This document shows positions 2,597 through 48,486 of a stretch of DNA of 48,486 nucleotides, in pieces. Source of the stretch: Laspinema sp. D2d. Its GTDB lineage: Bacteria > Cyanobacteriota > Cyanobacteriia > Cyanobacteriales > Laspinemataceae. How positions within the stretch are numbered: position 1 is the first letter of the stretch; each line of letters opens with the position of its first letter. Where the stretch lies: contig NZ_JAMXFC010000043.1 in assembly GCF_025370755.1 (NCBI RefSeq), positions 1 to 48,486 of the forward strand, written 5' to 3'. A program made the translations under genes and the position numbers. The notes under the pieces were generated by a model. The model was not told the DNA's origin. It saw only the letters and a program-made list of their open reading frames with translations, and ran no database searches.

Positions 2597-2616
2597 TGTT
2601 TCCCTCATCCCTGTTC

Positions 2617-3246: not shown

Positions 3247-3304
3247 GAGTTCGAGTTGATCAATGTAATGTAATCTTGGTCATCATATTATAAACCGCGA
3301 AGAA

Positions 3305-3366
3305 ACGACTGAAGTCGTTACTACGAACAGTAGATTTCCCCTGTTTGTAGTAACGACTTCAATCGT
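3305..3366. repeat. Long imperfect inverted repeat (REP/MITE-like hairpin)
   Basis: Arms at 3305-3330 and 3341-3366 pair in 24 of 26 positions, separated by a 10-base loop (TAGATTTCCC). The arm core is GAAGTCGTTACTACGAACAG. It lies between the divergent HTH gene start (3246) and the 3' end of dps (3439). Length and symmetry suggest a dispersed palindromic repeat rather than a simple terminator, although it could also terminate dps transcription on the minus strand. Confidence 0.75.
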
Positions 3367-3438
3367 GATCTCCTGTAGGTGTTCACTCACCTAAATACCC
3401 GATTTCTAGTTTCGGGTTGGCAAAGTTTAACCGATGTT

Positions 3439-3963
3439 TTATTCTTCTAGTAGACTTCTTAACATCCAAGCGGTTTTTTCATGAATGTGCATCCGCTGGG
3501 TTAATAAATCAGCGGTGGGTTCATCGTTTGCTGCATCAACGGTGGGGAACACAGAACGAGCAGTCCGTACTACGGCTTCTTGTCCTTCTACTAACAACTG
3601 AATCATCTCTTTGGCTTTCGGAACCCCGAGAGTTTCTTCAATGGAGCTTAATTGACTAAACTCGGTGTAAGTGGCGGGTGCAGGATATCCCAAGGCCCGA
3701 ATCCGTTCGGCGATCGCATCTACAGCTAAAGCCAATTCGGTGTATTGGGTCTCAAACATCACGTGCAAGGTCTGGAACATTGGGCCGGTAACGTTCCAAT
3801 GAAAATTATGGGTTTTTAAGTAGAGGGTATAAGTATCGGCGAGGAGTCGTGATAATCCTTCGGCGATTTCTTGCCGGTCTTGTGCATTAATCCCGGTATT
3901 GATTTTTGACCCTTTGTCTTTCTCTTTATCTTTATCTTTGTCTTTGTCTTTATCTTTTCCCAT
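3439..3963 (-). CDS. dps: Dps family DNA-binding ferritin-like protein
   Basis: A 174-residue four-helix ferritin-like protein that oxidises and stores iron with peroxide and protects DNA. Residues H55, H67, E71, D82 and E86 (in KTHNFHWNVTG, TLHVMFETQY and VDAIAERI) match the inter-subunit ferroxidase residues of Dps proteins. The C-terminus keeps the DLLTQRMHIHEKTAWMLRS helix. The N-terminus is a long lysine/aspartate tail (residues 2-17), encoded by a hexanucleotide tandem repeat. Lys-rich N-tails in Dps usually bind DNA, but this one alternates Lys and Asp and so carries little net charge. The gene lies just downstream of sulfiredoxin on the same strand, separated by about 180 bases, giving a peroxide-defence pair. 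Confidence 0.92.
   Translation of the reverse strand: MGKDKDKDKDKDKEKDKGSKINTGINAQDRQEIAEGLSRLLADTYTLYLKTHNFHWNVTGPMFQTLHVMFETQYTELALAVDAIAERIRALGYPAPATYTEFSQLSSIEETLGVPKAKEMIQLLVEGQEAVVRTARSVFPTVDAANDEPTADLLTQRMHIHEKTAWMLRSLLEE
3914..3957 (-). repeat. Hexanucleotide tandem repeat inside dps
   Basis: On the minus strand the unit AAAGAC/AAAGAT is repeated about seven times, encoding the alternating K-D tail of Dps. Such in-frame short tandem repeats can change copy number by slippage without breaking the frame. Confidence 0.85.
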
Positions 3964-4142
3964 GATTCGGTCTCCTTTAGAACGAGTCTGTTGTTAACAG
4001 GATTACTAGAGTGTCGGTACAGTCGGGTTAGAAATCGGGTTTCTTAATAACACTCGGCTGGCACGGGAACAAAGAAAGGTTGAGTAACCTGGTAATCGTC
4101 CCATTGATCCAATACTGTACCGCCTCTATTGGACACATCGAC

Positions 4143-4403
4143 TCAGGCTAGGTGCATTTTTAGCACCGATCGCGGAGCACGACGGACATTACAGCGAATG
4201 GTTTTATGGCCTAGGCGTTGACAAGCCTCATAGCGATGACAACCAGAAAAGCCGTAATATTCCCCTTCTACTTCTAACACGTCAATTGGTTCTAGTAGTC
4301 CGATTTCTTGGATGGACGCCATCAGCTTCTGTACTTTTTGTAAGTCATTCTGGCGCGGTAAGGGACGCCGAATCTTGGCGATCGGGATTTCTTCGACTCT
4401 CAT
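4143..4403 (-). CDS. srxA: Sulfiredoxin
   Basis: An 86-residue protein of the ParB/sulfiredoxin fold. The motif GFSGCHRYEA with Cys55 is the sulfiredoxin signature (F-[S/G]-G-C-H-R), distinguishing it from ordinary ParB-N proteins. Upstream the L-L-E-P-I-D-V-L segment (residues 36-43) matches the family. Sulfiredoxin uses ATP to reduce the cysteine sulfinic acid of over-oxidised 2-Cys peroxiredoxins in the cytoplasm. Length is normal for the bacterial enzyme. It lies upstream of dps on the same strand, fitting an oxidative-stress role. The start at 4403 is followed directly by the conserved beta-strand (VEEIPIAKI). Confidence 0.88.
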   Translation of the reverse strand: MRVEEIPIAKIRRPLPRQNDLQKVQKLMASIQEIGLLEPIDVLEVEGEYYGFSGCHRYEACQRLGHKTIRCNVRRAPRSVLKMHLA

Positions 4404-34072: not shown

Positions 34073-35063
34073 ATCTCAATCCAGGGTTTGCTAGAGCCAG
34101 ATCCCCGGCGATCGCCAGGGGAGGAATTCCACCCTGGGAGTTCAGCTTTGGCAGTTCCCTGGATGTTCTTCAACCCCGAGACAGGACCCGGGTAAAATCC
34201 CCGGGTGTTGTCTCTATTTTAAGGGTTATGTAAATTCACGGTCAAACCGAGGGGGCCATCTGGAGGATTTTCCAGGGCCACCGACTGCAATTGTCAGGAA
34301 ATCTAGTTGATTCAAGGCGCTAATCCTCAGGAGTTTGACAAGAGTGGATCGAGAAGAAAGCGAGATTTAGGAGCAGTTAGGGGGTAAACTGAGTCCGTCC
34401 AGACTGCGATCGCCTCCTGGCACGAAGCCTGCTAAAAATCCCCGGATCGACCGTAAAATTAGCTAATATCTGACCTCAGCAGGCTGGGAAGGTCCAGTAT
34501 CCCATTCTGAACAACCCGGGGGTATCCCTCGATTCCGCAGAATAGCGCCGACTCACCTTTCGTTTTAACCGACTAAAGTTTGTTGAGTCACCCTACCCGT
34601 CTAAGCCTTGCAAGTCCCTCGCTCGGAGCGAGGGGGGTCAACGAGTTGGGAGCCTGTCCTGGCACAGGTGCTTAAGTCGGTCATAGGATTCGGGCCGCGC
34701 CTTAATCACGATTAAATTATAGGAACTCGGGATCAAGGCAGGACCGTAATCGTATTCTGACAACCAACGTATTAGTTTAACCCGTTCACATCGACCCGCG
34801 CTTTGATGAATTGGATTGAAGGGAAGTGAACCGAATCAAGGTAAAAATAGAATTGGGGACAGAAAAACTAGGTTATCCAGCTTTAGCGGCGGGATAACAG
34901 CCTTTCTTTGGTCTGAATAACTACAGGTTGGGTTTATTGAGGTTCACCAACTTCCCCCGGATCAGCGCACAAATACCATTTATTCCCTCACCGGGATCAC
35001 AGTCCCTTGAGTCGTTTTTACCCAGTGTAGACCGGGTGTTTTCCAATCGTTCAGGAGGTTCTG
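34073..35063. other. Non-coding region of about 1 kb upstream of ppc
   Basis: No open frame with support. It contains a nested secondary-structure candidate at 34568-34681 (listed separately) and the ppc promoter and leader. The GC content is similar to coding DNA, unlike the AT-rich gap at 17540-19155. Confidence 0.5.
34568..34681. ncRNA. Candidate structured RNA upstream of ppc
   Basis: An outer stem pairs 34568-34578 (ACCGACTAAAG) with 34671-34681 (CTTAAGTCGGT), ten of eleven positions. It encloses a second stem 34582-34586/34638-34642 (GTTGA/TCAAC) around a perfect eight-pair hairpin CCCTCGCT-CGG-AGCGAGGG (34616-34634), and a third hairpin CCTGT/ACAGG (34653-34668). Such nesting is unlikely in random DNA of this length. 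Strand, expression and family are unknown; no match to a named riboswitch or 6S RNA was recognised. Confidence 0.4.
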
Positions 35064-38000
35064 ATGACTTTACGACTCGAACCCTCAAATTCTGTTATGA
35101 CAGTTAGTTCGTCCGACTTATTTTTACGCCATCGTCTCAAAGTCGTCGAGGACTTATGGGAGTCCGTCCTACGGACTGAATGCGGTCAGGAATTAGTGGT
35201 TCTACTGGCGCAATTGCGATCGATGTATTCCGCCGAGGGACAAGCCTACAATTTTTCAGAATCCAGTGTTCTGAAATTAGTAGAACAGTTGGACCTTAAT
35301 GATGCAATTCGAGCCGCTCGTGCCTTTGCATTGTATTTTCAACTGATTAACATTGTTGAGCAACATTACGAGCAGCGCGATCGCCTGCGATTTGCGGGAA
35401 CAACTAACCCCGTTGTCCCCGAAACTGAGCAATTTGAGGTTCCCAAAGAAAGCCCTTATTTTGCGAGTCAAACTGTTACGCGCCGTCGAGAATTAGCCAA
35501 TTTCTCTGCTTTGTTTCCTAAATTAAAGCAGTTGAATGTCCCGCCCCAGCAAATCCAGAAAATTATGGAAAGTCTGGATATTCGCTTAGTCTTTACCGCT
35601 CACCCGACGGAAATTGTTCGTCATACCTTGCGGACCAAACAGCGGCGGTTGGCTCAAATTTTACAAGAACTCGACACCCTAGAAGAAGGTCGGCAACCGG
35701 ATAGCCAAACAACATCCTGCGAAACGAAAGACCTCCTAGAGGCACTCACTGAAGAAATTCGCCTGTGGTGGCGAACAGACGAATTACATCAGTTTAAACC
35801 ATCTGTCCTCGATGAAGTAGATTATACCCTCCACTATTTCAAAGAGGTTCTATTTGATGCCGTCCCTCAACTCCACCACCGCCTAAAACGCTCGTTGCAA
35901 GCGTCATTTCCCTATCTGCAACCCCCCCGTTACAATTTCTGCAAATTTGGCTCATGGGTCGGGTCCGATCGCGATGGCAATCCCTATTGTACTCCTTCGA
36001 TTACCTGGAAAACTGCCTGCTATCAGCGGCAGTTAATCCTAGATAAATACATGGGTTCTCTCGATCGCTTGACCCAACTTTTGTCCTTGTCTCTGCACTG
36101 GAGTGACGTCTTACCAGAACTCCTGGAATCCCTGGAACAAGACCGACTACAAATGCCAGACATTTATGAAAAACTGGCAATTCGCTATCGACAAGAACCC
36201 TATCGGTTAAAACTCGCCTATATCTGGCATCGCCTGGAAAATACCCGCGATCGCAATCAGCGTCTTTATACCGAATCCGACTGGAATCGCCATTTGAGTG
36301 ATATCAAAAATGCTCCGATGTATCACTCCGGTGCAGAATTTCTCGATGAATTACGCCTGATTCAACGCAATTTAGCCGCAACGGGCTTAAGCTGTCGAGA
36401 CTTAGAACAACTCATTTGCCAAGTAGAAATCTATGGCTTTATTTTAGCCCACTTAGATATTCGGCAAGAATCCTCCCGCCACAGTACAGCGATTACAGAA
36501 ATAGCAGAATATCTGCAAATCTTACCCCGCCCTTACGATGACCTATCGGAAGCCGAAAAAACCGAATGGTTGACCCTAGAACTGAAAACCAGGCGGCCTT
36601 TAATCCCCGCAGAACTGCCCTTTTCGGAGCAAACCAGCGAGATTATTTCTACCTTTAGAATGCTGCGGGCCCTTCAAGAAGAGTTTGGCTTGGAAATCTG
36701 TCAAACCTACATCATTAGCATGAGCCGTGATGTTAGTGATTTGTTAGAAGTCCTCCTGCTTGCCAAAGAAGCCGGTCTTTATGACCCCGCTACCGGCATG
36801 GGAACCATTCAAGTCGTTCCTTTATTTGAAACCGTAGAGGACTTAAAACGCGCACCGACGGTCATTCAGAATCTGTTTGAACTGCCACTTTATCATGCTT
36901 TACTCTCCGGCGGATACCAAAAAGCTCTCCCGGCCAGTGTCACTCAGACGGATGTCCCCAACATTTCTAACCTGAAATCTTCTCACATTCAGGTTCCTAA
37001 ATTACAAGAGGTGATGCTGGGATATTCCGATAGTAATAAAGATTCGGGATTTTTAAGCAGTAACTGGGAAATTCATAAAGCCCAAAAAGCGCTCCAACTC
37101 ATTGGCGATCGCTTCAGTGTGGTCCTCCGCATCTTTCACGGTCGCGGCGGGTCTGTTGGTCGCGGGGGCGGTCCAGCTTATGAGGCGATTTTAGCTCAAC
37201 CGGGCCGCAGTATTAACGGGCGGATTAAAATTACCGAACAAGGGGAAGTTTTAGCCAGTAAATACACCTTACCCGAGTTAGCCCTTTATAACTTAGAAAC
37301 TATCGCCAGTGCGGTAGTTCAAAGTAGCTTACTCGGGTCCGGCTTTGATGATATTGAAGCCTGGAATCAAATCATGGAAGAGTTGGCCGATCGCTCTCGC
37401 CAACATTACCGCGCCTTGATTTATGAACAACCTGATTTTATTGATTTCTTCCATGAAGTCACCCCCATTGATGAAATCAGCAAGTTACAAATCTCCTCGC
37501 GCCCTGCAAGACGCAGTAGCGGCAAACGGGATTTAGGTTCTCTGCGGGCCATTCCTTGGGTCTTTAGCTGGACTCAAACTCGGTTCCTCCTCCCTGCTTG
37601 GTACGGCGTCGGAACTGCCCTGAATAATTTCCTAGAACAGGAACCGGAAGAACATCTGAAACTCTTGCGCTATTTCTATCTAAAATGGCCGTTCTTTAAG
37701 ATGGTGATTTCTAAAGTAGAAATGACCCTCTCCAAGGTGGATTTAGAAATTGCCCATCACTATGTTCGGGAACTGACTCAACCGGAAAATCGCGATCGCT
37801 TTGAAGCCCTGTTCACTCAAATTGCGACGGAATTTAACCTCACCCGCGATTTAGTGCTCGCTATCACTGAACATCAACGGCTGTTAGATGGAGACCCAGA
37901 TTTACAGCGATCGGTTCAATTGCGAAATGCCACTATCGTTCCCCTGGGTTTATTACAAGTGTCCCTACTCAAACGCCTGCGCGAACATCAAAGTCAGTCC

Positions 38001-38102
38001 GTAACGGGAGTGATTCACTCCCGTTACAGCAAGGGCGAATTGCTACGGGGTGCCTTGTTAACCATTAACGGGATCGCTGCGGGGATGAGAAATACCGGCT
38101 GA
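35064..38102 (+). CDS. ppc: Phosphoenolpyruvate carboxylase
   Basis: A 1012-residue, full-length bacterial-type PEPC with a strong AGGAGG ribosome-binding site at 35053. It adds bicarbonate to PEP to form oxaloacetate in the cytoplasm, feeding amino-acid synthesis from the TCA intermediates. The catalytic His lies in [13 protein letters not shown] (about residue 177-183). [16 protein letters not shown] (about 653) and [19 protein letters not shown] (about 692) are the active-site loops, and the protein ends in AAGMRNTG. A 27-base palindrome lies in the last 30 codons (38001-38027). No phosphorylation motif of plant PEPC is present at the N-terminus. Confidence 0.97.
38001..38027. repeat. Perfect palindrome inside the ppc coding sequence
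   Basis: GTAACGGGAGTGA and TCACTCCCGTTAC are exact complements around one central T. It encodes the VTGVIHSRY stretch just before the conserved [11 protein letters not shown] motif. Confidence 0.85.
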
Positions 38103-38151
38103 TGCCTTCAGGGATTCGCTAAACTGATTCCAGTGGAAACAATCTCCGGTC

Positions 38152-38174
38152 CCCTCCCCTTGCCAAGGGGAGGG
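38152..38174 (+). terminator. Hairpin after ppc (REP-like)
   Basis: CCCTCCCCTT-GCC-AAGGGGAGGG is a perfect ten-pair stem 50 bases after the ppc stop. It is followed by TATAGGGTGGGG, as in a widespread bacterial intergenic repeat type, and a second CCCTCCC/GGGGAGGG pair recurs at 38196-38244. It may terminate ppc transcription. Confidence 0.6.
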
Positions 38175-38367
38175 TATAGGGTGGGGTCCTTCAATCCCCT
38201 CCCTTATCAGTTGATTCTGTGGGTGAATCACGCCCAGGGGAGGGCGATCGCAACCCACCCATCAACCAGAAACTGAATCCAGTTTCCCTCAGTTCTGAGT
38301 TAACACAGGGAATGTCCGGTTGAGCGTTCACCCTCCAGCCACCCTGATTCAGGATAAGGATAGGATT

Positions 38368-38973
38368 ATGAACAAATCAAAAAAACGGATGTTGATCTGC
38401 ACGGGAGTGGCTCTCTTATCCGGTGCCTTGGGTTCATTTTGGGGCGGACAAATGCGGTGGTTGGCCCATGCTCAACAGTGCAACACGAGCGATTATGTGT
38501 GGTTAAATACCTTGTGCCGAGTGCAGCATAGTCCCGCAATGTTCAAAGGTGGCACCGCTGGATTGTGGACGGGGACGATTTTGGGGGCATTTCTGGCGGG
38601 AATTGCTACCCGCCACCCCAAAGGGAAAAGCCTCTCGGGAAGCGGAAATCAAGAATTGTCGGCCAGTGAAGGGGACCGCCTGGAGTTAGAGGGGTTAACC
38701 CCGGAACAACTGGTACAGGTCCGGGAGTTGATCACCCTGTTAAAAACCCAACCCGCCGATTTGACCCCGGCTTCTGGAAGACCCCAGGCGATCGCCTCCA
38801 AACCCGTCAGTCTGATGGAGTTTCAACAATGGCTTACTGCCCTTGCCCAGTTCCAGGAAATCTCCCCCCTGACTCCACTACAAGCGCAGCATTTGTTGCA
38901 TCAACTGGGATTTTCTGACGAGGCGATCGCCGAGGCCCAAGCCTCCCGCTCCAAACCTGTAGAACGCTCCTAA
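38368..38973 (+). CDS. Hypothetical membrane protein, about 201 aa
   Basis: The preferred start is the ATG at 38368 (MNKSKKRMLIC), behind AGGATAAGGATAGG; a TTG 16 codons earlier is less likely. Residues 8-25 (MLICTGVALLSGALGSFW) and about 62-83 (GGTAGLWTGTILGAFLAGIA) are membrane helices, with a short loop containing two cysteines (QQCNTSD, NTLCRV) between them that would be periplasmic or lumenal and could form a disulphide. The C-terminal 115 residues are soluble and helical (LTPEQLVQVRELITLLKTQ, QAQHLLHQLGFSDEAIAEAQ). Not recognised. It stands between ppc and the HD gene on the same strand. Confidence 0.6.
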   Translation: MNKSKKRMLICTGVALLSGALGSFWGGQMRWLAHAQQCNTSDYVWLNTLCRVQHSPAMFKGGTAGLWTGTILGAFLAGIATRHPKGKSLSGSGNQELSASEGDRLELEGLTPEQLVQVRELITLLKTQPADLTPASGRPQAIASKPVSLMEFQQWLTALAQFQEISPLTPLQAQHLLHQLGFSDEAIAEAQASRSKPVERS

Positions 38974-39547
38974 TCCGGTCTCAGCATCCCGGTTTCCCCA
39001 TTTGATTTTTTCACCCTAAAACTTAAAAAGGCTGGCCTTCCTCTCCGGAACAAGGGAGCCTCAGTGCAAAATCACCGGGATAATCTCCCCTCGTCCTCTC
39101 CACAACCCCAACATCCACAGCGGTTTCCCACCCCGTTGCAAATCGGGAGGGGAGATTCCCATAAACCAACCCATCCCAGGGAGTGCCCAAGCGGTTTCAA
39201 AAAATTATTTCCCTGCTGCTGGTGGGGTTGGGGGGATCTCTGCTAGAAAATTTGATGTTTTAAAGTCCCCCTAATCCGGGGAAAGGCGAATTCCATCTCA
39301 AAAATTCAACTGGCCCAGGGGGACAGTTATGATTAATATTAGGGGTAAAGACAAGGGCAATTAACAGTCCAGTAGAGTCACGGGTTGGGTGGTCGTCCCA
39401 ACTGTCGCAGATCCTACAGAGTGGGGTCAACTCTAACAGCAACCTAGAAGGTCCATAGAACACCAAGGGAGATCGAACCAAGGGAACCAGGGCGAAACTT
39501 TTCCCATTCCTACCCTATAGCCTGCCTTGATAGCGAAACCACCCGAT
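38974..39547. other. Intergenic region of about 570 bases
   Basis: No gene supported. A 60-codon frame starting with GTG at 39064 lacks family resemblance. Small stems such as AGAGTGGGGTCAACTCT near 39418 are present. It should contain the promoter of the HD gene. Confidence 0.4.
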
Positions 39548-40387
39548 ATGTACAGCATCACACAGATATTAATTTCCGACTTTGTTGAAAAACTCCGCGA
39601 AGGCTATTACCGGATGTATGGCGGACTGAAGCCGGACTATGCCGATATTATTGCTTGGGCCGGAGGCATGGCCTTAGAGAATATTGCCAACAGTGACGCC
39701 CTTTACCATAATGTCGAGCATACCATTTTAGTTACCCTTGTTGGTCAGGAAATTCTCCGAGGGAAACACATCCGTGAAGGCGGGGTTTCTTGTGAAGATT
39801 GGCTGCATTTCACCATTTCTTTGTTATGCCATGATATTGGCTATGTCAAGGGGGTTTGTCGAGAAGATAGTGAAGGATTGTATGCCACCGGAATCAATGG
39901 TATAATGGTTTCTCTTGATCCGGGCTGCACGGATGCCAGTTTGACTCCCTATCATGTCGATCGCGGTAAACTGTTTATTGAAGAACGGTTTGGCGGCCAT
40001 AAGTTAATCAATTCTGAAGAAATTAAACTCAACATCGAACTCACTCGTTTTCCGGTTCCGGCAGAGGCAGATCATCAAGATACGGTTAATTATCCCGGTT
40101 TAGTTCGGGCTGCTGACCTCATCGGTCAATTGAGTGATCCCCGCTATCTTAAGAAGATTTCTGGGCTATTTTATGAGTTTGAGGAAACGGGGTTTAATCA
40201 AAAAGTTGGCTATCGAAATCCCGGAGATCTCAGAAAAAATTATCCTAAATTTTATTGGGGAGTGGTTCATCAATATATTAAAAATGGGTTGACTTGTCTG
40301 GAGTTGACTCAACAGGGAAAACAAATTATTGCTAATCTTTACGCCAATGTGTTTGTAGTTGAACATGAACCCCCCAAGCCAACATAA
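39548..40387 (+). CDS. HD-domain metal-dependent phosphohydrolase-like protein (Npun_R2479 type)
   Basis: About 279 residues from the ATG at 39548 (MYSITQILISDF); the frame extends upstream to a TTG at 39527. The metal-binding pattern is ALYHNVEHTILV, LLCHDIGYVKGVCRED (H-D pair at about residue 98-99) and a later Asp (VRAADLIGQLSDPRYL), as expected for HD phosphohydrolases. The whole sequence closely resembles the cyanobacterial family named after Npun_R2479. The substrate is not known; HD enzymes commonly dephosphorylate nucleotides. It is the first gene of a plus-strand run with the ThyA-like protein and ThyX, so a nucleotide substrate is reasonable but only inferred. Confidence 0.85.
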   Translation: MYSITQILISDFVEKLREGYYRMYGGLKPDYADIIAWAGGMALENIANSDALYHNVEHTILVTLVGQEILRGKHIREGGVSCEDWLHFTISLLCHDIGYVKGVCREDSEGLYATGINGIMVSLDPGCTDASLTPYHVDRGKLFIEERFGGHKLINSEEIKLNIELTRFPVPAEADHQDTVNYPGLVRAADLIGQLSDPRYLKKISGLFYEFEETGFNQKVGYRNPGDLRKNYPKFYWGVVHQYIKNGLTCLELTQQGKQIIANLYANVFVVEHEPPKPT

Positions 40388-40762
40388 GGGATGGCGGTGC
40401 GATCGCCTCTTGAAACCCTAACGGAAATTAGCTGTAAGTCATTGGGTCCCCTGGCATCCGGCGGGTTCCCCCTCAATCCCTCTTTCTATTGTGTCAATTT
40501 CATGATATATTGAACATCGCGATTGGTCCAAATAGTTTTGGCCCTGTTTTTCATTGGAAGGCAGGATAATAACCGGCCTTCACTCTCCGATTATCGGGTT
40601 AATTTTTAAGGGAAATACAAGGAATTATTCTAACCTAAAATTGCAAAATTTTATGGCTTTCTAAGTTAACTTTAAAGTTAGAGTCGGGAATTATCTCGAT
40701 TATTCTAATATCCGATTGAACCCTAATTATCGCAAGCCATCCAAGAAAAAAGGTTTATAAAA
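40388..40762. other. Intergenic region before the ThyA-like gene
   Basis: About 375 bases without a gene. A stem GAAGGC (40557-40562)/GCCTTC (40576-40581) may terminate the HD gene. The stretch TAAGTTAACTTTAAAGTTAGAG near 40661-40682 is AT-rich and symmetric, possibly the promoter region of the following gene. Confidence 0.4.
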
Positions 40763-42418
40763 ATGTTTAGAAATACCACTCAGGCATTCTACTCCGAACT
40801 GAAAGCACTGTTAGACTCTAATGAAACGGTTTTGTGGGGTGGGATTGAACTCAAAGCAGGGCGATCGCGCCTCATGAAAATTACCTCTCCCCGCGAACGA
40901 GTTGATATCATTCCTCATCTCAACTCTAACCTCTTTGCTCAAATTGCCGCCACCTTTTGGGAAATGGCCGGTCGTAAAGACTTAAGATTCTTATATCACT
41001 ATTTACCCCAAGCCCTCGACTTTTTTGAAGAAGACCCATCCCAGAACAGCCATGAAAATCCCAGTTTAAAATCCTGGCATCTCAGCAAAGAAATTCAAAA
41101 AATTGTCTGCATTTTGAACACCGATTCCAGTAGCCGAGATGCAGTGATTAATTTATCACAACCTCAACTAACAGACTTAGGAAAGCCCGGAAATATTGCC
41201 CAGAATTGGATGCAATTTTTAATCAGAAATGGTAAACTGCATTTGAATGTTTGTATTCAGTCCCATGATCTGTTGTCCGGGACTTCGGGAATTAATCCGT
41301 TTGGATTGAGCATTTTTCAGGAAGCTGTTGCCTATTGGACGGGAACCCAAGTGGGGGAATATTGCTGCTTCATCAGCGAATTGCATCTCGGCGATCGCCA
41401 CGCTACCCAGGCGCAAAAAGTCCTAGACTCCCACACTCCCAAAACCTTATATGAATTCGGATTTACACCCCCTCAATTTACCACCCCATTTCGCGAAATT
41501 GATAGTACCCTATCACGCTGGTTTGAGTTAGAACATCAAATGCGGCAAGGGTCATTGACAGTCTGGGATGAACTCCAGGATATCCCCGATGAGTTAGTTA
41601 AAAATAGCTTGGAATTACTGTACATTTACAATCGACACCTCCAGGGAGACAAACCGGAAAAAATCGCCCAATTCATCGCCAAATTACCTCAAAATGATTT
41701 CAAAATTGCCGTAATCGAATATTTTTCCCGACTCTGGAACGACTACGAAATCATCCGCCTAGACCCCCAGGAAAAAGACTACTTCGATTATCTCTGGCAA
41801 CGAAGAGAACCAACTCACGCCTATTCTTTTTTAAGTATATTCGAGTTATTAAGCACCCTCCATTACAAGAAAACTCTAGTTTATAAAAATAGCTGGAAAA
41901 AACATGGAGAAGCCCTCGGCGTATTTGCTGGAATTTCCCGCAAATACGACCGCCTCGAAACCATGTTCACTGAAAATGTCAAACCCACTGCGGACGAATC
42001 GGTACTGGATACCTTTGCCGATTTAGCCGTCTATTCCACCAAATATTTAACCTATCTGGCGGAACATTATCCTGAAATGTTTCAAGAATTTATTCAACCC
42101 TATTCCATAGCTGAAGACTTACAAACCTACTGGCATAACGAAGGATTCGACCCGACTTCTAAATTACTGATTCAAAGGTATGAATCATCCGAACAATGGC
42201 AGCAGATATCTAGCTATCAAGGCTGTTTTGAGGCGATTCGAGATGCTTATAAAAAACTAGAGGATATCTTTGTCAACAACGATTGGAGAGTCAGCGATTC
42301 GCGCAAATGTAGCTTATCCGCCGACTTGGCGATCGTCTCCTTGCACTATCTCGTCCTGGCATCCCAACAAGAACCGGAGAATTTCCAGAAATTTGCGGAG
42401 GCGATCGCCAATTTGTAA
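40763..42418 (+). CDS. Thymidylate-synthase-fold pseudoenzyme fused to two DUF1599-like domains
   Basis: A 551-residue protein. Residues about 1-235 follow the ThyA order: SPRERVD, NLFAQIAATFWEMAGRKDL, SSRDAVINL, MQFLIRNGKLHLNV, CIQSHDLLSG (ThyA: YQRSxD), NPFGLSIFQEAVAYWTGTQV and LHLGDRH (ThyA: GDAHxY). Where ThyA has PPCHxxxQF, this protein reads IAQNWMQF, so the catalytic Cys is replaced, and the GxYGxxWR loop is also lost. Residues about 365-450 (YKNSWKKHGEALGVFAGISR then YDRLETMF and DESVLDTFADLAVYS) resemble DUF1599, which is found with phage nucleotide-modification and thymidylate genes. Residues about 470-545 repeat the same pattern (QWQQISS...CFEAIRDAYKKLEDIF...SADLAIVSLHYL). It lies directly upstream of thyX, 132 bases apart. 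Probably a nucleotide-binding regulator rather than a synthase; that is inference. Confidence 0.6.
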   Translation: MFRNTTQAFYSELKALLDSNETVLWGGIELKAGRSRLMKITSPRERVDIIPHLNSNLFAQIAATFWEMAGRKDLRFLYHYLPQALDFFEEDPSQNSHENPSLKSWHLSKEIQKIVCILNTDSSSRDAVINLSQPQLTDLGKPGNIAQNWMQFLIRNGKLHLNVCIQSHDLLSGTSGINPFGLSIFQEAVAYWTGTQVGEYCCFISELHLGDRHATQAQKVLDSHTPKTLYEFGFTPPQFTTPFREIDSTLSRWFELEHQMRQGSLTVWDELQDIPDELVKNSLELLYIYNRHLQGDKPEKIAQFIAKLPQNDFKIAVIEYFSRLWNDYEIIRLDPQEKDYFDYLWQRREPTHAYSFLSIFELLSTLHYKKTLVYKNSWKKHGEALGVFAGISRKYDRLETMFTENVKPTADESVLDTFADLAVYSTKYLTYLAEHYPEMFQEFIQPYSIAEDLQTYWHNEGFDPTSKLLIQRYESSEQWQQISSYQGCFEAIRDAYKKLEDIFVNNDWRVSDSRKCSLSADLAIVSLHYLVLASQQEPENFQKFAEAIANL

Positions 42419-42550
42419 GTGTCCGATGACAGCAAGTCATGATAGGATGAAAAATTTGGCAAATCTAAGAACCCGGTAAGTGCAACCCAGAACCAATCCG
42501 CGATCGGGAGATTCCCCCAGGGGAAACCATTTAGAAGTTAGGAATAAATC

Positions 42551-44431
42551 ATGGATCGATTTCGAGTAGAAGTAATTACCAAAACCCCCAATCCTCAGCA
42601 AGTCATTTATGCAGCAATGCACCAAGATTATAGCGAGGATTTTGTCTATGATGACCAAGATACTTGGCCGTCAGAATCCAAATGTGGCGAACTCATTGTC
42701 AAGCGTCTGTTAGCCGGGGAACGGGGTCATTATGGACCGATTGAACACGTGGGAATTGTGTTCAATTGCGGCTTTTTTCCCCATAGTGTCATGCAGCAAA
42801 TTAGGACTCACAGAGTTGGAATTTCATTCGATGTGCAATGTCTGGCTGGAGACACCGAGGTTACTTTTTTACACGCTGGTGGAAGTTTACGCAAAATAAA
42901 AATTGCTGAACTTTACGATTTGTGGGCTAACGGAGAAAAAGCTATCCGCCAGCGATTAAAACGAGGTAGAAACGGAGAACCACCAGGAGAATACCGCCGG
43001 GATTGCAAAACGCGACTCAAAAAAATTCGGTTGAGGGTTTTAAATGAAACCACAGGATTTTTTGAAATTGGACACATTAATAACGTTATTATTAAGGGTG
43101 TCCAGCCTGTTTATCGAGTAACTCTAAAAGATGGAAAAACATTGGATTGTACGACCAAACACCGTCTATTTACATCGGAAGGTTGGCGAACAATGGGAGA
43201 AGCTGTTGGTTTAGTAACCGATAAAGATGGCAAAGTTCTCCGATTCACTAAAGACTGCAGTTTGATGTGTAATGGGACTGTAGTAGGCGAAGGTCTCTAC
43301 AGAGATAAAAGTTGGCTCCAACATCGATTAAGTGAAGGGCTGTATGTTAATGAAATAGCTCAAATGGCAGGCTGTTCAATAGAATCAGTTAAAAAATGGG
43401 TATATTTTCATGGGTTATCGGTAAATAAACGTCCTAAAGGAACTAAAAATCCTTGGAATAAAGGTAAGAAAGGATACCGTTTGAACCTTTCTGTAGAAAG
43501 TTTTGAAAAAAGACGAGAAAACGCAAAACTTTACACGAAGAGGGGAGAAGATTCTCATTTTTGGAAAGGGGGAACCTCCAATGAGCGCGAACTGATTGGA
43601 GCATGGACAAGGCAAATAGCGCCCCAAGTTCATAAAAAGTTCTGTTACATTTGTCAGTCTTGTGGACAAACAGGAGGGGTGTTGCACGCGCATCATTTAG
43701 TACCTGTATATGCGGATGAATCTCTCGCTTATGATTTTGATAATCTGGTGACTGTGTGTAAAGCTTGTCACGAGGAGATTCATAGTAAAAATCAAGAAGC
43801 TGAGTTTGCTAAAAACTATCAGCCGATTCTTGAACCAAAAAACTGGAAAGGTAAACCTAAACCCCCGGGCAATAAATTAAGAGCGCACCCAGTTAATGTG
43901 GTTAGTGTTGATTTTTTAGGTTACCAAACGACCTACGATCTCGAAGTAGAAGGTCCTTGGCATAATTTCGTAGCGAATGGCGTAGTTGTTCATAATTCTA
44001 ATCGTTACACGGGTAACCGTATTGTTGATGCGGCAAAAGGAATTCGCGACATTGAAGATGTGTTTTATTTACGTCCCGTTGGCTACTATACCGATCGCCA
44101 GGGAAAACGCTATGAATATACCCAACAACAACGCGATCGCGATTTAGCTTGGTGTTTAGATGCCGCCAAACGCTATCAGGTTTTGATTGAAGAAGGGACA
44201 TCAGAAGAACACGCCCGAGGCATTATTCCCTTTGATGTCCGTCAACACTGGGTGGTTTCCTTCAATGCGCGAAGTCTTATGCATTTACTCGATCTGCGCG
44301 CCAAACCCGACGCCCAACTCGAATGCCAAAAACTCTGCGATTTGATTTGGCCGCATTTTCAAGAATGGGTCCCCGCTATAGCAGAATGGTATGAGAAACA
44401 TCGTCTCAAAAAAGGTCGTTTATCTCCCTAA
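42551..44431 (+). CDS. thyX: FAD-dependent thymidylate synthase ThyX, intein-containing precursor
   Basis: A 626-residue precursor. ThyX methylates dUMP to dTMP using methylenetetrahydrofolate and NADPH via FAD. The N-extein (residues 1-96) has GHYGPIEHVG and the flavin-binding QIRTHRVGISFDVQ. The C-extein (residues 483-626) starts SNRYTG and includes GIIPFDVRQHWVVSFNARSL and the C-terminal active-site Arg region. Joined, they give a normal 240-residue ThyX. The intein sits within the ThyX signature RHR...S motif, just before the conserved Ser. The ATG at 42551 has a weak ribosome-binding site (TTAGGAATAAATC). Convergent with dut. Confidence 0.95.
   Translation: MDRFRVEVITKTPNPQQVIYAAMHQDYSEDFVYDDQDTWPSESKCGELIVKRLLAGERGHYGPIEHVGIVFNCGFFPHSVMQQIRTHRVGISFDVQCLAGDTEVTFLHAGGSLRKIKIAELYDLWANGEKAIRQRLKRGRNGEPPGEYRRDCKTRLKKIRLRVLNETTGFFEIGHINNVIIKGVQPVYRVTLKDGKTLDCTTKHRLFTSEGWRTMGEAVGLVTDKDGKVLRFTKDCSLMCNGTVVGEGLYRDKSWLQHRLSEGLYVNEIAQMAGCSIESVKKWVYFHGLSVNKRPKGTKNPWNKGKKGYRLNLSVESFEKRRENAKLYTKRGEDSHFWKGGTSNERELIGAWTRQIAPQVHKKFCYICQSCGQTGGVLHAHHLVPVYADESLAYDFDNLVTVCKACHEEIHSKNQEAEFAKNYQPILEPKNWKGKPKPPGNKLRAHPVNVVSVDFLGYQTTYDLEVEGPWHNFVANGVVVHNSNRYTGNRIVDAAKGIRDIEDVFYLRPVGYYTDRQGKRYEYTQQQRDRDLAWCLDAAKRYQVLIEEGTSEEHARGIIPFDVRQHWVVSFNARSLMHLLDLRAKPDAQLECQKLCDLIWPHFQEWVPAIAEWYEKHRLKKGRLSP
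42839..43996 (+). mobile_element. ThyX intein with HNH homing endonuclease (386 aa)
   Basis: The intein begins with Cys97 (CLAGDTEV, splicing block A) and ends VVVHN before Ser483 of the C-extein (block G; His-Asn then Ser as +1 nucleophile). Block B is TLDCTTKHRLF with the T-x-x-H pattern, and block F is YDLEVEGPWHNFVANG. The central insert contains a helix-turn-helix-like part (LSEGLYVNEIAQMAGCSIES), a NUMOD3-like region (GTKNPWNKGKKG) and an HNH nuclease core CQSCGQTGG...HAHHLVPV...NLVTVCKACHEEIH with two zinc Cys pairs. All motifs look intact, so splicing and homing may be active. Confidence 0.93.
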
Positions 44432-44439
44432 CTTCCGAA

Positions 44440-44472
44440 GGGTATAGAGAGACCAACCCTCTCTCTATACCC
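44440..44472. terminator. Bidirectional terminator between thyX and dut
   Basis: GGGTATAGAGAG (44440-44451) and CTCTCTATACCC (44461-44472) form a perfect twelve-pair stem with loop ACCAACCCT. It overlaps the last codons of dut on the minus strand and starts nine bases after the thyX stop. Confidence 0.8.
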
Positions 44473-44896
44473 CCGTCGATCCAAAACCATTTGCACCTCT
44501 TGTAGTTGCCATAATTTCCGTGGTTGCTACCTCAATTTCTGGCCTTAAAACTGGAGTAATTGCCATTTGAGCAATTCTCATCCCTTTGAGGACTTGAAAA
44601 ACTTCTTGTCCATGATTGATTAAAATCACCTTAATTTCCCCCCGATATCCTTCATCAATGGTTCCCGGCGTATTCAAAACTGTAATCCCCTGTTTATAAG
44701 CTAACCCACTTCTCGGCCTAATTTGTGCTTCCGTCAAAGGCGGTAACTCAATCGCAATTCCGGTTCCAACTAACTTCCGTTCCCCCGGATGTAGCGTCAC
44801 CTCTTCATTCGCCGATAAATCCATTGCGGAATCGTTGTCATGGGCATAAGTTGGAATAATGGCATCCGGATGCAAGGGATAAATTTTTAGTTTCAT
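44465..44896 (-). CDS. dut: dUTP diphosphatase
   Basis: A 143-residue trimeric dUTPase with all five motifs: DSAMDLSA (1), [11 protein letters not shown] (2), [19 protein letters not shown] (3), [10 protein letters not shown] (4) and the C-terminal [10 protein letters not shown] (5). It hydrolyses dUTP to dUMP and pyrophosphate, preventing uracil incorporation and feeding ThyX. Convergent with thyX and divergent from the DUF2442 gene with only 43 bases between start codons. Confidence 0.96.
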
Positions 44897-44939
44897 CTTG
44901 GGCGGTTTCAGTGACTTTTTAACTCAGTACAATTAAACT

Positions 44940-45233
44940 ATGATGCCTTATTTCATTCAAATTGTCACCCCAGAAGCCAATTATCACCTCCACATCCTCT
45001 ACAGTAATGGAACGGTTATTGGGATTGACTTTTCCCCATTTATTGAGCGTGGTGGAGTGGTTTACAGATTATCCGATACGGCCTTCTTTTCACAAATCAA
45101 ATGTTCAAAAGACGGTCGCTTTATTGAGTGGCCGGGAGAAATTAACTTTTGTGCTGATGCCTTATGGTTTCAAGCTCATCCTGATGATAAACCCTTTATT
45201 GCTTCATCTTCAGCAGCATCTAAAGCCTTATAA
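44940..45233 (+). CDS. DUF2442 domain-containing protein
   Basis: A 97-residue protein of the small DUF2442 family (beta-strand-rich), with FIQIVTPEANYHLHILYSNG, VIGIDFSPFIERGGV and CSKDGRFIEWPGEINFCADAL. An overlapping frame from 44962 is a shadow. It often occurs next to DUF4160 proteins in putative toxin-antitoxin pairs, but no DUF4160 gene lies here. A 43-base divergent spacer separates it from dut, so the two starts share promoter space. The start has two Met codons in a row. Confidence 0.8.
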   Translation: MMPYFIQIVTPEANYHLHILYSNGTVIGIDFSPFIERGGVVYRLSDTAFFSQIKCSKDGRFIEWPGEINFCADALWFQAHPDDKPFIASSSAASKAL

Positions 45234-45317
45234 ACCGATGATTTTAACCTGGATTTATTAGTATTTTCTGCCTCAAACTGTTACTATGAATAGAAACGAT
45301 TGGATAGCTCAAAATTA

Positions 45318-45860
45318 ATGGAACTGGAAGAACTGAGACCAACATGGGATGAATATTTTATCATGTTGGCAAAATTGGCGGCGATGCGATCAACTTGCCT
45401 TGCTTTTCCTGTGGGTGCAGTGATTGTTAAAAATAAGCAGGTTGTAGCAACGGGTTATAATGGTTCCCCGTCGGGTACGGCCCATTGTACGGCGCAGGGA
45501 TACTGTTATCCCGGATTGAGTAGCTGTGCAGAAAGTAAGTCTTTGCCTTCTCGGGCGGTTCATGCGGAAGCGAATGCGATCGCCCAAGCGGCTAAACATG
45601 GAATTTCCACTGAAGGATCCAGCATTTATGTCACTCTGGAACCTTGTTTATCTTGCTTAAAATTAATTATTTCTGCCGGAATTCATGAAGTGTTTTTCGA
45701 GACCGGATTTAACAGTGGAAACAGCCTGTTAGTGCGAGATTCGTTTATTCAGGATGGGTTAGTTACCCTCAAACAAATTCATATTTCTGAGGCGATCGCC
45801 CAAAAAGCTGCCACCTTTCTGATCAACCCAACCTCTGTAGCCAACCAATCCCTCATCTAA
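45318..45860 (+). CDS. Deoxycytidylate deaminase (dCMP deaminase)
   Basis: About 180 residues from the ATG at 45318 (MELEELRPTWDEYF); the frame extends to a TTG at 45300. Zinc and catalytic motifs are RAVHAEANAIAQAA (H-A-E) and TLEPCLSCLKLI (P-C-x-x-C). The N-terminus RPTWDEYF-x4-AKLAAMRSTC matches dCMP deaminase more than other CDA-superfamily members. It converts dCMP to dUMP, the substrate of ThyX. The gene is 67 bases after the DUF2442 gene on the same strand. An inserted cysteine-rich loop (CTAQGYCYPGLSSC) lies at the usual extra-zinc or substrate-loop position. Confidence 0.9.
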   Translation: MELEELRPTWDEYFIMLAKLAAMRSTCLAFPVGAVIVKNKQVVATGYNGSPSGTAHCTAQGYCYPGLSSCAESKSLPSRAVHAEANAIAQAAKHGISTEGSSIYVTLEPCLSCLKLIISAGIHEVFFETGFNSGNSLLVRDSFIQDGLVTLKQIHISEAIAQKAATFLINPTSVANQSLI

Positions 45861-45913
45861 AAGAATTAAGAATTAAGAGTTAGCCCCCCATTAATTCTTA
45901 ATTCTTGCCTGTC

Positions 45914-46450
45914 CTACGGACGATGACTGCGGCGAATTTCAGTGATTTGGTCCGCTAATTCTAAAATTGGTTGGGGCATATTCGGTCCCGTTAAAATAAT
46001 ATCAACGTGACTCGGGCGTTTTTCTAAAAATTTTAAAACTTCCGCTTCGGGGATCAAGCCAAAACTAATGGCTACACTCAACTCATCCAGAACGACGAGA
46101 GAATATTTTCCTTCAAAAACCACTTGTTGGGTATAGTCCCATAATTTTCGCAGAGAACCGGCCTCAATTTCATCTAACTCCGGCGTATCAATGCAGCGAG
46201 GTAAGTCACAACGAACCCAATCCAGGTTTTGGCCGAGTTGAACCGGGGCCTCTGGACCCTGACCGATTCCTCCCTTGAGAAACTGGACGACCAGGACCGG
46301 GGTCCCCTGACCCGAAATTCTTAGGGCCTGGGCCATAACACTGGTAAAAAAGTTGCGATGGCTGCTGGTAAAAACTTGTAGCAACCCCTCCACGGCGTAG
46401 GGTAGACGACAAGGCGTATCGAGAGTGGGACTTTCTAGCTGTGCAATCAT
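45914..46450 (-). CDS. CobO/BtuR-like P-loop-fold protein without a Walker A motif
   Basis: A 178-residue protein aligning along its whole length with ATP:corrinoid adenosyltransferase CobO/BtuR: LLQVFTSS, TPVLVVQFLKGGIGQGPEA, LDWVRCDL, LVVLDELSVAISFGLIP, DIILTGPNMPQPILELADQITEIRR. But the glycine/lysine P-loop (GDGKGKTTA in CobO) is replaced by SSHRNFFTS (residues 29-37). The Walker B DE is kept. This replacement is, as I recall it, shared by cyanobacterial homologues, so it may be a distinct paralogue with another activity. It is not clear whether it makes adenosylcobalamin. Confidence 0.8.
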   Translation of the reverse strand: MIAQLESPTLDTPCRLPYAVEGLLQVFTSSHRNFFTSVMAQALRISGQGTPVLVVQFLKGGIGQGPEAPVQLGQNLDWVRCDLPRCIDTPELDEIEAGSLRKLWDYTQQVVFEGKYSLVVLDELSVAISFGLIPEAEVLKFLEKRPSHVDIILTGPNMPQPILELADQITEIRRSHRP

Positions 46451-46712
46451 TGTGGCAATATTTCCGATGGGTGACGAAACCGAAAAGATAGACCGATAGA
46501 CTGCCAGGAAGTGAATTCGGGCAATCCCATCAAGTCAATATGTAGTGTTTGGTAACCCGATTATGCCACGAAAAAACACTAAATGTACAAAATCCCGCGA
46601 AATGCCCGAGGCGTGGGAACTTGGGACAAAGTTAGGGAGAAATTAAGATTTATTCCCTGAGAAGGGTAACAGTGGTAGAGTCTATTTTGGGCCAACATGA
46701 GGAGTTTTTGTC

Positions 46713-47300
46713 GTGAGATTGGTAATTCTGGGAGGGCCAGGAGCAGGAAAGGGGACCCAGGCGAGTCAGCTATGCAGTCGCCTGAATATTCCTTGCATTT
46801 CAACCGGGGAAATCCTGTTTAAGGCGATCGCCGCCCAAACTGAATTAGGCAGGCAGGCGCAACCTTATGCAGAACGTGGGGAACTGGTCCCGGACCCCAT
46901 CATGATTGAATTTATTCGCGAACAGTTAACCCAACCCTATACACAAAACGGGTGGTTACTCGATGGTTATCCCCGCACCTCATTCCAAGCGGAAGAACTG
47001 GATTTTTTACTGGAATCCTTGCAGCAGACCCTAGATTGGGCGATTTGGCTGAACGTATCCGATGCGGAGTTAATGCGCCGGTCCCTAGAGCGATCGCAGG
47101 CGAAACCGGAAAGAGGGCGTCCCGATGACGAACCGGAATTTCTGCGTCGTCGGATCCAGTTATTCCAAGAACGCACGACTCCCATCTTGGACTACTACAA
47201 CTATGGCGATCGCCTCCTCACCCTCGATGGCGATCGGCCCTCGACAGAAATCCATAAAGAAATCTGGAAAACGGTCAACCCTAACAAAACGCAATCCTAA
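46713..47300 (+). CDS. adk: Adenylate kinase
   Basis: A 195-residue protein with a GTG start and GAGG ribosome-binding site. The P-loop [10 protein letters not shown] is at residues 7-16, the NMP-binding region [18 protein letters not shown] follows, and the LID is short (no zinc). [18 protein letters not shown] contains the conserved DGYPR. It interconverts AMP, ADP and ATP. Only two bases separate its stop from the rph start, indicating translational coupling. Cyanobacteria usually have a second adk in the ribosomal protein operon; this one appears to be an additional copy, which is inference. Confidence 0.9.
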
Positions 47301-47302
47301 TC

Positions 47303-48034
47303 ATGATTTGGCAGCGTCCCGATGGCCGAGAACCGGCACAACTGCGTCCGATTCGGTTTGAAAAAGACTTTACCCGCTTTGCGAACAGTTCCGTCCTGAC
47401 CCGTTGTGGCGATACCCAGGTCCTCTGTACCGTCACCATCGAACCCGGAGTCCCTCGATTCCTTGCTAATCAAGGCAGTGGCTGGTTAACCGCAGAATAT
47501 CGAATGCTTCCCGGTGCCACCCCCCAACGGCAATCCCGAGAATTCATGAAACTGTCGGGACGCACCCAAGAGATTCAACGCCTCATCGGGCGCAGTTTAC
47601 GCGCGGCACTGGATTTAAAAGCACTGGGAGAACGGACAATTCTGATTGATGCCGATGTCCTCCAAGCCGATGCCGGAACCCGAACCACATCGATTACCGG
47701 GGGATTTGTGGCCCTAGCCTTGGCGATCGAGAAACTGGTGCAAACCGGAGAGTTAGAACAATCGCCCATTTGTCGCCAAGTCGCCGCTGTTTCCGTGGGG
47801 TTATTTGAGGGTGAACCCTATCTGGACCTCAACTACCCGGAAGATGTGGCAGCAGATATTGATTTTAATGTGGTGATGAGCGATGGGTTGGATATTCTGG
47901 AATTACAAGGAACTGCCGAAGCAGGCAGTTTTAATCGCACCGAACTCAACCGCATTTTAGATATGGCTGAATCCGGAATTCAGGAATTAGTCGCCGCACA
48001 AAAACAGGCCATTTATGGGGGGAACAACGGGTAA
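47303..48034 (+). CDS. rph: Ribonuclease PH
   Basis: A 243-residue protein of the RNase PH family. It has [20 protein letters not shown] near the N-terminus, [55 protein letters not shown] (phosphate-binding/active site) and [20 protein letters not shown]. It removes 3' extensions of tRNA precursors phosphorolytically and is a hexamer in the cytoplasm. It starts two bases after adk, forming an operon with it. Confidence 0.96.
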
Positions 48035-48074
48035 AATTATTTATTTTTGATTATCAACTGATTGATTGATCATA

Positions 48075-48275
48075 ATGCCTAACGATGAATTGTTGGATGA
48101 ATATGACTTTTCCCAATTAAGCGGAGGGGTCCGGGGAAAATATGTCGAGCGTTATCAACAAGGAACGAATTTGGTCCTGCTAGATCCAGATGTAGCCCGT
48201 GCGTTCCCAACCCAGGAATCGGTGAATGAAGCCTTGCGGTTATTGATTCAAATTTCTGAACGTCTACGAGAGTAA
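48075..48275 (+). CDS. Orphan antitoxin-like small protein, 66 aa
   Basis: The ATG at 48075 gives MPNDELLDEYDFSQL then GGVRGKYVERYQQGTNLVLL and a C-terminal DPDVARAFPTQESVNEALR-type segment. This compact layout (charged N-terminus, GGVRGKYV-x2-Y-x2-GTN, then a helix for dimerisation) is a common cyanobacterial small family often found near VapC- or RelE-like toxins. No toxin lies downstream before the window end. A TTG at 48066 would add three residues. It starts 40 bases after rph and may belong to the adk-rph transcript. The antitoxin function is inference. Confidence 0.6.
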   Translation: MPNDELLDEYDFSQLSGGVRGKYVERYQQGTNLVLLDPDVARAFPTQESVNEALRLLIQISERLRE

Positions 48276-48381
48276 AGGGTGTTTAATAGTCAGTCAGTTT
48301 AAATTGTAAATCTCATAGAGTTTTCCCATATTGCCGCAGTACCGGAGGAAGGGAAAACAGCGATTGTTGTTGTTGGATAAA

Positions 48382-48486
48382 AGAGGCGTTGCACATCTAT
48401 GGTATGATAAGGAGGTAGCCTCTACCTCTAGAAAATATGATTTGTCCTAAGTGTCAGTCCAGCAATATCAGTAAAAATGGCGTGAA
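48382..48486 (+). mobile_element. Left end of an IS1-type insertion sequence (cut by window edge)
   Basis: The stretch from about 48382 (AGAGGCGTTGCACATCTATG) contains a palindrome GAGGTAG-CCT-CTACCTC at 48412-48428, and the transposase start follows at 48437. The exact left inverted repeat and the target duplication cannot be fixed because the right end is outside the window. Confidence 0.4.
48437..48486 (+). CDS. IS1-family transposase, N-terminus (partial)
   Basis: The ATG at 48437 opens MICPKCQSSNISKNGV before the window ends. The C-P-x-C-x(n)-K-N-G pattern is the zinc-ribbon start of IS1-type InsA-like transposases found in cyanobacteria. The remainder, including any InsB frameshift, is out of view. 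Confidence 0.65.
   Translation, partial: MICPKCQSSNISKNGV

Follow-up and report, generated by a model that had tools for sequence, protein, structure and literature searches.

Phages are thought to make bases derived from 5-hydroxymethyl-deoxyuridine monophosphate (5-hydroxymethyl-dUMP) with a cassette that unites an HMUDK_hel-like protein, a pyrimidine hydroxymethylase and a nucleotide modification associated domain (NMAD). In Bacillus phage SPO1 the hydroxymethylase and the NMAD belong to two separate genes, gp29, annotated in its record as a dUMP hydroxymethylase, and gp30, annotated there under 'DNA replication'. In Glutamicibacter phage Montesquieu, Brevibacterium phage LuckyBarnes and the 288-kb phage contig L149 they form one protein, such fusions being annotated as 'Thymidylate synthase/pyrimidine hydroxymethylase' or 'thymidylate synthase'. 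A further relative of the hydroxymethylase is MilA, the 5-hydroxymethylase of the mildiomycin pathway (5jnh, 5b6d), which is active on cytidine monophosphate (CMP) and has no NMAD domain. Here, we describe a cyanobacterial protein with the same two parts in the same order, labelled THYL, which is encoded on contig NZ_JAMXFC010000043.1 of Laspinema sp. D2d (the window, the whole analysed stretch of 48,486 nucleotides). Its two-part architecture is almost certain. Read from its sequence, THYL is a pyrimidine hydroxymethylase/ThyA fold without the catalytic residues, joined to a constrained second half and kept in one fixed place beside thyX, the gene of the flavin-dependent thymidylate synthase, in all eight Laspinema genomes (Laspinema denotes genus g1 throughout). 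The parts of the gene are as follows.

40763–42418, forward strand: THYL, a 551-residue fusion of a dead hydroxymethylase/ThyA fold and a duplicated NMAD1-like domain
40763–41797, forward strand: first part of THYL, residues 1–345, a MilA/SPO1-gp29-like pyrimidine hydroxymethylase fold, extended by helices at its C terminus and without its catalytic residues
41198–41200, forward strand: codon 146, the position of the catalytic Cys; Ala in the window, Cys in the Laspinema genomes G388, G391 and G389
41258–41260, forward strand: codon 166, the position of the phosphate-binding Arg; Gln in all eight Laspinema
41813–42097, forward strand: NMAD1/SPO1-gp30-like copy 1, residues 351–445 approximately, with the invariant K-Y-SW-GE-RK-DR-DT-DL-Y-Y motif
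42125–42415, forward strand: NMAD1-like copy 2, residues 455–551 approximately, with the helix order of copy 1 and an eroded motif

The reading frame is open over all 551 residues, and the closest protein among named records is that of Laspinema olomoucense (87%). The initial annotation had recognized a ThyA fold in the first half, and this is borne out: the half matches the Pfam family Thymidylat_synt (PF00303) above its cut-off (E 3.3e-6). An AlphaFold2 model from a 28-sequence alignment [mean predicted local distance difference test (pLDDT) 81; predicted template modelling score 0.62, the mutual placement of the halves being unsure] is predicted by Foldseek to resemble MilA first among structures in the PDB (E 1.1e-14; TM score 0.80 normalised on MilA), with thymidylate synthases following from E 8e-10. 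MilA is also the best solved relative by sequence (E 1.6e-10), so that in both sequence and fold the nearest neighbour of the first half is a hydroxymethylase, represented by MilA and the phage hydroxymethylase-type fusions. A plain divergent ThyA was considered and rejected, the closest relatives being hydroxymethylase–NMAD fusions. The proposed identity, a pseudoenzyme fused to a duplicated DUF1599-like unit, survives with an amendment of its nearest relatives, which are not a ThyA with a new domain attached, and the suggested connection with base modification is supported.

The active site of the window protein is extensively altered. Aligned on SPO1 gp29, it carries Ala146 for the nucleophilic Cys, Gln for R166, Ala for E63 and Gly for Y210, and the YG..R.R loop is lost, with the Tyr-Gly pair and both loop Arg residues gone. 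The disappearance of this loop (earlier written GxYGxxWR) and of the Cys had been noticed correctly, and the pairing of PCHxxxQF with IAQNWMQF is right, since G388, G391 and G389 have Cys at column 146. Despite this Cys, these three of the eight Laspinema proteins are without the Glu, the Tyr-Gly pair, the phosphate Arg and the Tyr, and the site is incomplete in all eight. None of the eight still has the phosphate Arg (R166), the Glu at 63 or the Gly at 99; S167, N178 and H208 are retained in every protein and R125 and D169 in seven of eight. The remaining exceptions are a Tyr at column 98 in G390, an Arg at 101 in G391, Asn168 without R125 in G386 and the absence of D169 in G389. Among other cyanobacteria, G409 has also lost its site (Cys to Gly, phosphate Arg to Cys and Asn to Thr, among others), and G393 has lost nearly all site residues, including S167, N178 and H208.

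The site is intact in SPO1 gp29, 22 phage contigs, the two named phages, two rhizobial plasmids and the cyanobacteria G398 and G451. SPO1 gp29 and the 28 fused proteins of this set all keep the Glu, Trp, Tyr-Gly pair, three Arg, Cys, Arg-Ser-Asn-Asp, Gly, Asn, His and Tyr; variation is confined to the Pro before the Cys (Ala in four) and the Asn after it (Thr in one). The 28 rows correspond to 27 distinct sequences (LuckyBarnes and L090 are identical) and exclude the decayed cyanobacterial copies. For this comparison and for the invariant columns used below, 22 of 32 viral contigs were taken, L075, L083, L089, L094 and L096–L101 being set aside as single-domain, cut, duplicate or atypical; phage rows were picked by architecture only, and G398 and G451 were admitted because of their site. 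The intact copies are taken as dUMP hydroxymethylases because of the annotation of SPO1 gp29, the resemblance to MilA and the presence of N178, the Asn indicative of specificity for uracil (the Asn177 rule, described in PMC8670742). The window protein presumably no longer makes hydroxymethyl-dUMP.

The second half is predicted to be all-helical (pLDDT 84 for a model of the C-terminal domain alone), and its model finds no solved structure in the PDB at E <= 0.001. The top match among viral models (E 5e-4) is to an uncharacterised protein; two BFVD proteins named NMAD1 or nucleotide modification associated domain are retrieved with Foldseek probabilities of 1.00 and 0.97 at weak E values of 0.05 and 0.7. 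By sequence, SPO1 gp30 carries the motif of this half; PHROG 22490, a 'replication protein' of the SPO1 gp30 type, matches all 27 aligned C-terminal domains (five from Laspinema and 22 from phage contigs; best E 3.6e-13), and none of the 27 matches PF07659 (DUF1599/NMAD1) at E <= 1. Sub-threshold PF07659 matches occur in two relatives (15.6 and 14.5 bits against a cut-off of 25), and none of 11 genomes or records exceeds this cut-off. 'DUF1599-like' therefore holds as a remote resemblance, the fold match to viral NMAD1 proteins being tentative and the Pfam gathering score not being reached. The duplication read from the window is real: its two copies align locally with a score of 99, where 1000 shuffles reach at most 47. 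It is clear in all eight Laspinema, G393, G451 and G462, and weak in G398 (score equalled or exceeded in six of 1000 shuffles) and G409 (in three of 1000). Of the 22 phage-contig proteins tested it is significant in one and undetectable in 21. A MazG-like all-alpha nucleoside triphosphate pyrophosphatase was also tried as an identity for this half and is not supported, there being no PDB match at E <= 0.001 and no protein of that class in the best 50 of 364.

Selection differs between the two halves. Across the eight Laspinema, the ratio of nonsynonymous to synonymous substitution rates (dN/dS) is 0.215 (0.160–0.279) for residues 1–240, 0.249 (0.154–0.346) for residues 241–350 and 0.076 (0.045–0.111) for residues 351–551, and none of 500 bootstraps reverses the order of the first and last of these regions. 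The corresponding values are 0.066 for the nearby dUTPase gene dut (eight genomes) and 0.057 for the neighbouring HD-domain gene (seven of eight genomes); the second half is under housekeeping-level selection in Laspinema. Where the 28 intact rows are invariant, all eight Laspinema conserve 16 of 40 columns in residues 1–240 and 14 of 15 in the C-terminal domain (Fisher p 0.0005); the figures are 11 of 40 and 14 of 15 in G393, and 26 of 40 and 14 of 15 in G409 (p 0.04). In the intact pair G398–G451 it is the first half that is more conserved (75% versus 67%), and in the pair G000–G393 the second (31% for the first, 72% for the second). A pseudogene in Laspinema was rejected: all eight copies are stop-free, 551 residues long and at a dN/dS of no more than 0.25 in every region, although the copy in G484 is broken. 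At least two separate site losses are indicated, because G409 groups with the intact G398 (89/82) and has lost other residues in a different way from Laspinema. The NMAD is likely to be the working part of the protein.

The nearest relatives of THYL lie on phages and plasmids. In them a pyrimidine hydroxymethylase of the SPO1-gp29/MilA type is joined to a domain of the SPO1-gp30 type (NMAD1/DUF1599-like), and an HMUDK_hel-like (5-hydroxymethyldeoxyuridine-kinase-helical-like) gene is often nearby. A query with the NMAD alone retrieved at least 80 viral contigs; among the 80 listed, 72 have a hydroxymethylase-type gene (fused in 30, separate in 42), 41 of the 42 separate genes overlap the NMAD gene as called open reading frames (ORFs), and 61 contigs have an HMUDK_hel-like gene. 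These contigs were not de-replicated, include near-copies and overlap with the 32 whole-fusion contigs; in four of the eight without a hydroxymethylase gene the NMAD gene lies at most 250 bases from where the stretch ends. The hydroxymethylase and helical profiles were built for this study, the helical one including a Montesquieu clade 2 protein without a Pfam HMUDK_hel match. In the whole-fusion scan, a helical gene was present within the available stretch in 25 of 32 viral contigs. Unlike in the window, the site is intact in Montesquieu, LuckyBarnes and, by eye, L149, as are the site residues of SPO1 gp29. The fused phage genes have HMUDK_hel-like genes in their neighbourhood and, in LuckyBarnes, also annotated glucosyltransferase genes. 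On the Sinorhizobium plasmid (L022), annotated TIR genes precede the intact fusion, and a TylF-type methyltransferase gene and then a gene matching Pfam HMUDK_hel come after it; the Rhizobium plasmid (L023) shows the same order by ORF reading, with TIR genes recognized by eye. Both loci resemble a defence island or a nucleoside pathway.

In a careful tree, the 12 cyanobacterial rows form one clade (100/99) with L149 as its sister (99/97); the cyanobacterial clade had a support of 87 in a quick tree without L149. SPO1 gp29, L090, L091, L102 and the G462 fragment were excluded from the careful tree, which is read without a fixed root and hence without a direction of transfer. L149, the closest viral relative of this clade, carries at 1900–4319 an intact fusion overlapped by a dUTPase gene; dUTPase is the next gene downstream of the fusion in G451 as well, on the opposite strand.

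A search with the single sequence of 386 genomes of the phylum returned only the query; a profile search is needed for this family, so that this absence carries little weight. In a survey of 243 genomes of the order, 98 matched and 14 were counted as fusions or remnants, most other matches being taken as housekeeping ThyA by frame length and match range, with a close look at G398, G409, G413 and G416. The 14 carriers comprise G398 and G451 with an intact site, the eight Laspinema, G393 and G409 with a lost site, G462 without the first half and G484 with a broken gene, where the contig stops 408 bases past the gene and another contig has thyX starting at base 193. In 11 of the 14 the gene is directly beside a thymidylate synthase gene, ThyX in the eight Laspinema and G462 and folate-type ThyA in G398 and G409. 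In G451 (99% complete) there is no thyX match and no PF00303 match besides the intact fusion, which occupies the position of thyX in G462 and has an HMUDK_hel gene directly upstream (L125). The 14 genomes of the family of Laspinema all have thyX and no ordinary ThyA, their sole PF00303 matches being THYL in the eight Laspinema. The linkage is therefore to the thymidylate synthase locus, not to ThyX itself. The emphasis of the initial annotation on ThyX is to be modified in this sense: a role beside ThyX is plausible, and the relatives adjoin folate-type ThyA in G398 and G409, G451 has no second detected thymidylate synthase, and thyX is ~340 kb distant in G393.

Within the window, the 132-base distance to thyX given in that annotation is confirmed, and the gene order is HD metalloprotein, THYL, thyX with an intein, dut on the opposite strand, DUF2442, dCMP deaminase, cobO on the opposite strand, adk and rph (the last two assigned by reading). 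The order HD–THYL–thyX–dut–dCMP deaminase recurs in all eight Laspinema, continuing with cobO–adk–rph where the stretch extends, and relatives of the HD gene are the upstream neighbour of THYL in all eight and in G393. The neighbouring features are listed below.

39527–40387, forward strand: HD-domain metalloprotein of the Npun_R2479 family (NF045583; profile run on the window copy)
42419–42550, forward strand: gap between THYL and thyX, 132 bases (132–136 in all eight Laspinema), well conserved
42551–44431, forward strand: thyX, flavin-dependent thymidylate synthase, split by an HNH-domain intein (at 42842–43996 approximately)
44465–44896, reverse strand: dUTPase (dut)
45300–45860, forward strand: dCMP deaminase

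We tentatively read THYL as a domesticated relative of the phage HMUDK_hel-like/hydroxymethylase/NMAD cassette whose NMAD module may still serve the dUMP/thymidine monophosphate (dTMP) step. The ThyA-fold half would survive as a scaffold, providing a dimer and perhaps an incomplete nucleotide pocket, and the NMAD module would bind or convert the pool of 5-substituted dUMP/dTMP. In phages the NMAD would serve the hydroxymethylase fused to it or encoded beside it; in Laspinema it would serve ThyX in trans by handing on, protecting or adjusting substrate or product. The specific partner, be it ThyX or a nucleotide pool common to dUTPase and dCMP deaminase, is a guess to which we give somewhat less than an even chance, as we do to a role with ThyX. 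A wider role of the SPO1-gp30-type NMAD as general partner of C5-modifying pyrimidine synthases, namely the phage hydroxymethylase, the thymidylate supply of G451 via the fusion and the ThyX of Laspinema, is conceivable but unlikely. Several observations weigh against the domesticated-cassette reading. To our knowledge, NMAD1 has no known biochemical function, and no solved structure resembles the C-terminal model at E <= 0.001. The first half, at a dN/dS of ~0.2, is still selected and not mere debris; the site of G409 is lost, yet its halves are equally conserved (75%/73% to G398 and 63%/64% to G451); the gene of G484 is broken; and the second half that G462 retains alone is under looser selection (dN/dS ~0.29 versus G451). 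The gene of G393 adjoins HD and is far from thyX. Five of the 14 genomes of the family carry thyX without THYL, so ThyX does not need THYL, and with dut and dCMP deaminase also at the locus either could be the partner.

Other explanations account for part of these data. The gene may be a relic of displacement, in which an intact fusion was once the thymidylate (or hydroxymethyl-dUMP) synthase, thyX or ThyA arrived beside it, catalysis was relaxed and the NMAD was kept for a function unrelated to ThyX. One chromosomal slot near dCMP deaminase, cobO, adk and rph (and dut, except in G413) indeed holds thyX in G229, ThyA in G413, the NMAD half with thyX in G462 and an HMUDK_hel gene with the intact fusion in G451, where the fusion stands without thyX or any other PF00303 match. 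G398, however, carries ThyA plus an intact fusion, the G451 copy is nearer to MilA (E 1.2e-31) than to thymidylate synthases (best E 5e-17), so that replacement of a synthase is unproven, and the place of the NMAD half beside a synthase gene is left unexplained; we regard this course of events as rather unlikely. A sensor, the role first suggested for the dead half, would bind dUMP or folate and signal to ThyX through the second half. The retention of S167, N178 and H208 in all Laspinema and of R125 and D169 in most speaks for it, but R166, the Glu and the Gly are gone from all eight, the first half is the faster-evolving one in Laspinema and G393, G393 has lost S167, N178 and H208 too, and G462 keeps the second half next to thyX with no first half at all, which makes a sensor very unlikely. 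An enzyme acting by another chemistry on uracil nucleosides or nucleotides would agree with the kept fold and partial base/ribose pocket, the dN/dS of 0.215 and the single length in all eight genomes; conserved chemistry at the nucleophile position would not tolerate the alternation of Ala and Cys among close species, and this option is extremely unlikely.

The cassette could also be a putative anti-phage system acting through modified pyrimidine nucleotides, with the Laspinema protein as a retained component. HMUDK_hel genes are found near intact relatives, as are TIR-domain genes upstream of those on the two rhizobial plasmids (annotated in Sinorhizobium, by eye in Rhizobium), and thymidylate synthase and 5-hydroxymethyldeoxyuridine (5-hmdU) kinase domains belong to recently validated defence systems (PMC13092281). 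The Fig. 3C legend of that source names, for DefensePredictor systems, thymidylate synthase, 5-hmdU kinase, deoxynucleoside monophosphate (dNMP) kinase and NMAD, domain kinds like those found here; thymidylate synthase, 5-hmdU kinase and NMAD need not share one system there, and a later passage describes an NMAD domain as not yet validated. The window gene, unlike those systems, has lost its enzyme site and its neighbours. Moreover, no PADLOC model matches at E <= 0.01, none of the eight Laspinema has an HMUDK_hel gene beside THYL, and elsewhere in their genomes one is found at E <= 0.001 only in G000 and G390 (two of the other genomes being 87% and 92% complete). The fixed place in all eight genomes and the housekeeping-level constraint are unlike a mobile defence island, and a defence role for THYL is distinctly unlikely. 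The earlier statement that no role is described holds for this architecture, for which none was found, and needs qualification for its parts, given the synthase and 5-hmdU kinase domains of validated anti-phage systems and the NMAD in the same legend (PMC13092281). In the open-access literature searched, neither a cyanobacterial fusion of this kind nor a catalytically dead thymidylate synthase next to thyX was found described.

On the domesticated-cassette reading, THYL would tie essential dTMP synthesis to phage machinery for thymine replacement. It offers a natural experiment on the NMAD/gp30 module, which persists while the enzyme fused to it dies, and the occurrence of thyX, ThyA or an intact fusion in one chromosomal slot makes thymidylate supply by the fusion testable in a free-living cyanobacterium, together with the contribution of NMAD to a thymidylate synthase.

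The gap at 42419–42550 is strongly conserved across the eight Laspinema, including GATAGGAT-like and AAAAATTTGGC stretches, and may contain the thyX promoter; promoter and terminator scans gave counts equal to those of shuffled sequence, and an Rfam scan of 35000–48486 gave no RNA element at the gathering score. The thyX genes of the eight Laspinema are long and interrupted in five (463–690 residues) and uninterrupted in three (240 residues). Extra thyX copies lie on other contigs of G392, G391 and G387, and a partial one in G389 beside a dUTPase-like gene (L038, L041, L052 and L070). A dCTP-deaminase-like gene at L029:12879–13937 is apparently interrupted by an intein, as read by eye.

A strict rule that the site is intact only where HMUDK_hel is present is weakened by G000 and G390, which have HMUDK_hel in another operon. 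In the genome of the window, an operon at L139:7201–11284 (contig C3), also present in G390, encodes a helix-turn-helix (HTH) protein, an ImmA/IrrE-like protease, a 277-residue protein with a weak match to the PHROG 5131 thymidylate synthase (E 0.0013), HMUDK_hel and MazG with MazG_C. The HTH protein and the protease were assigned by reading; the protease has PADLOC capP/RmrA matches, and the operon is likened to predicted defence systems.

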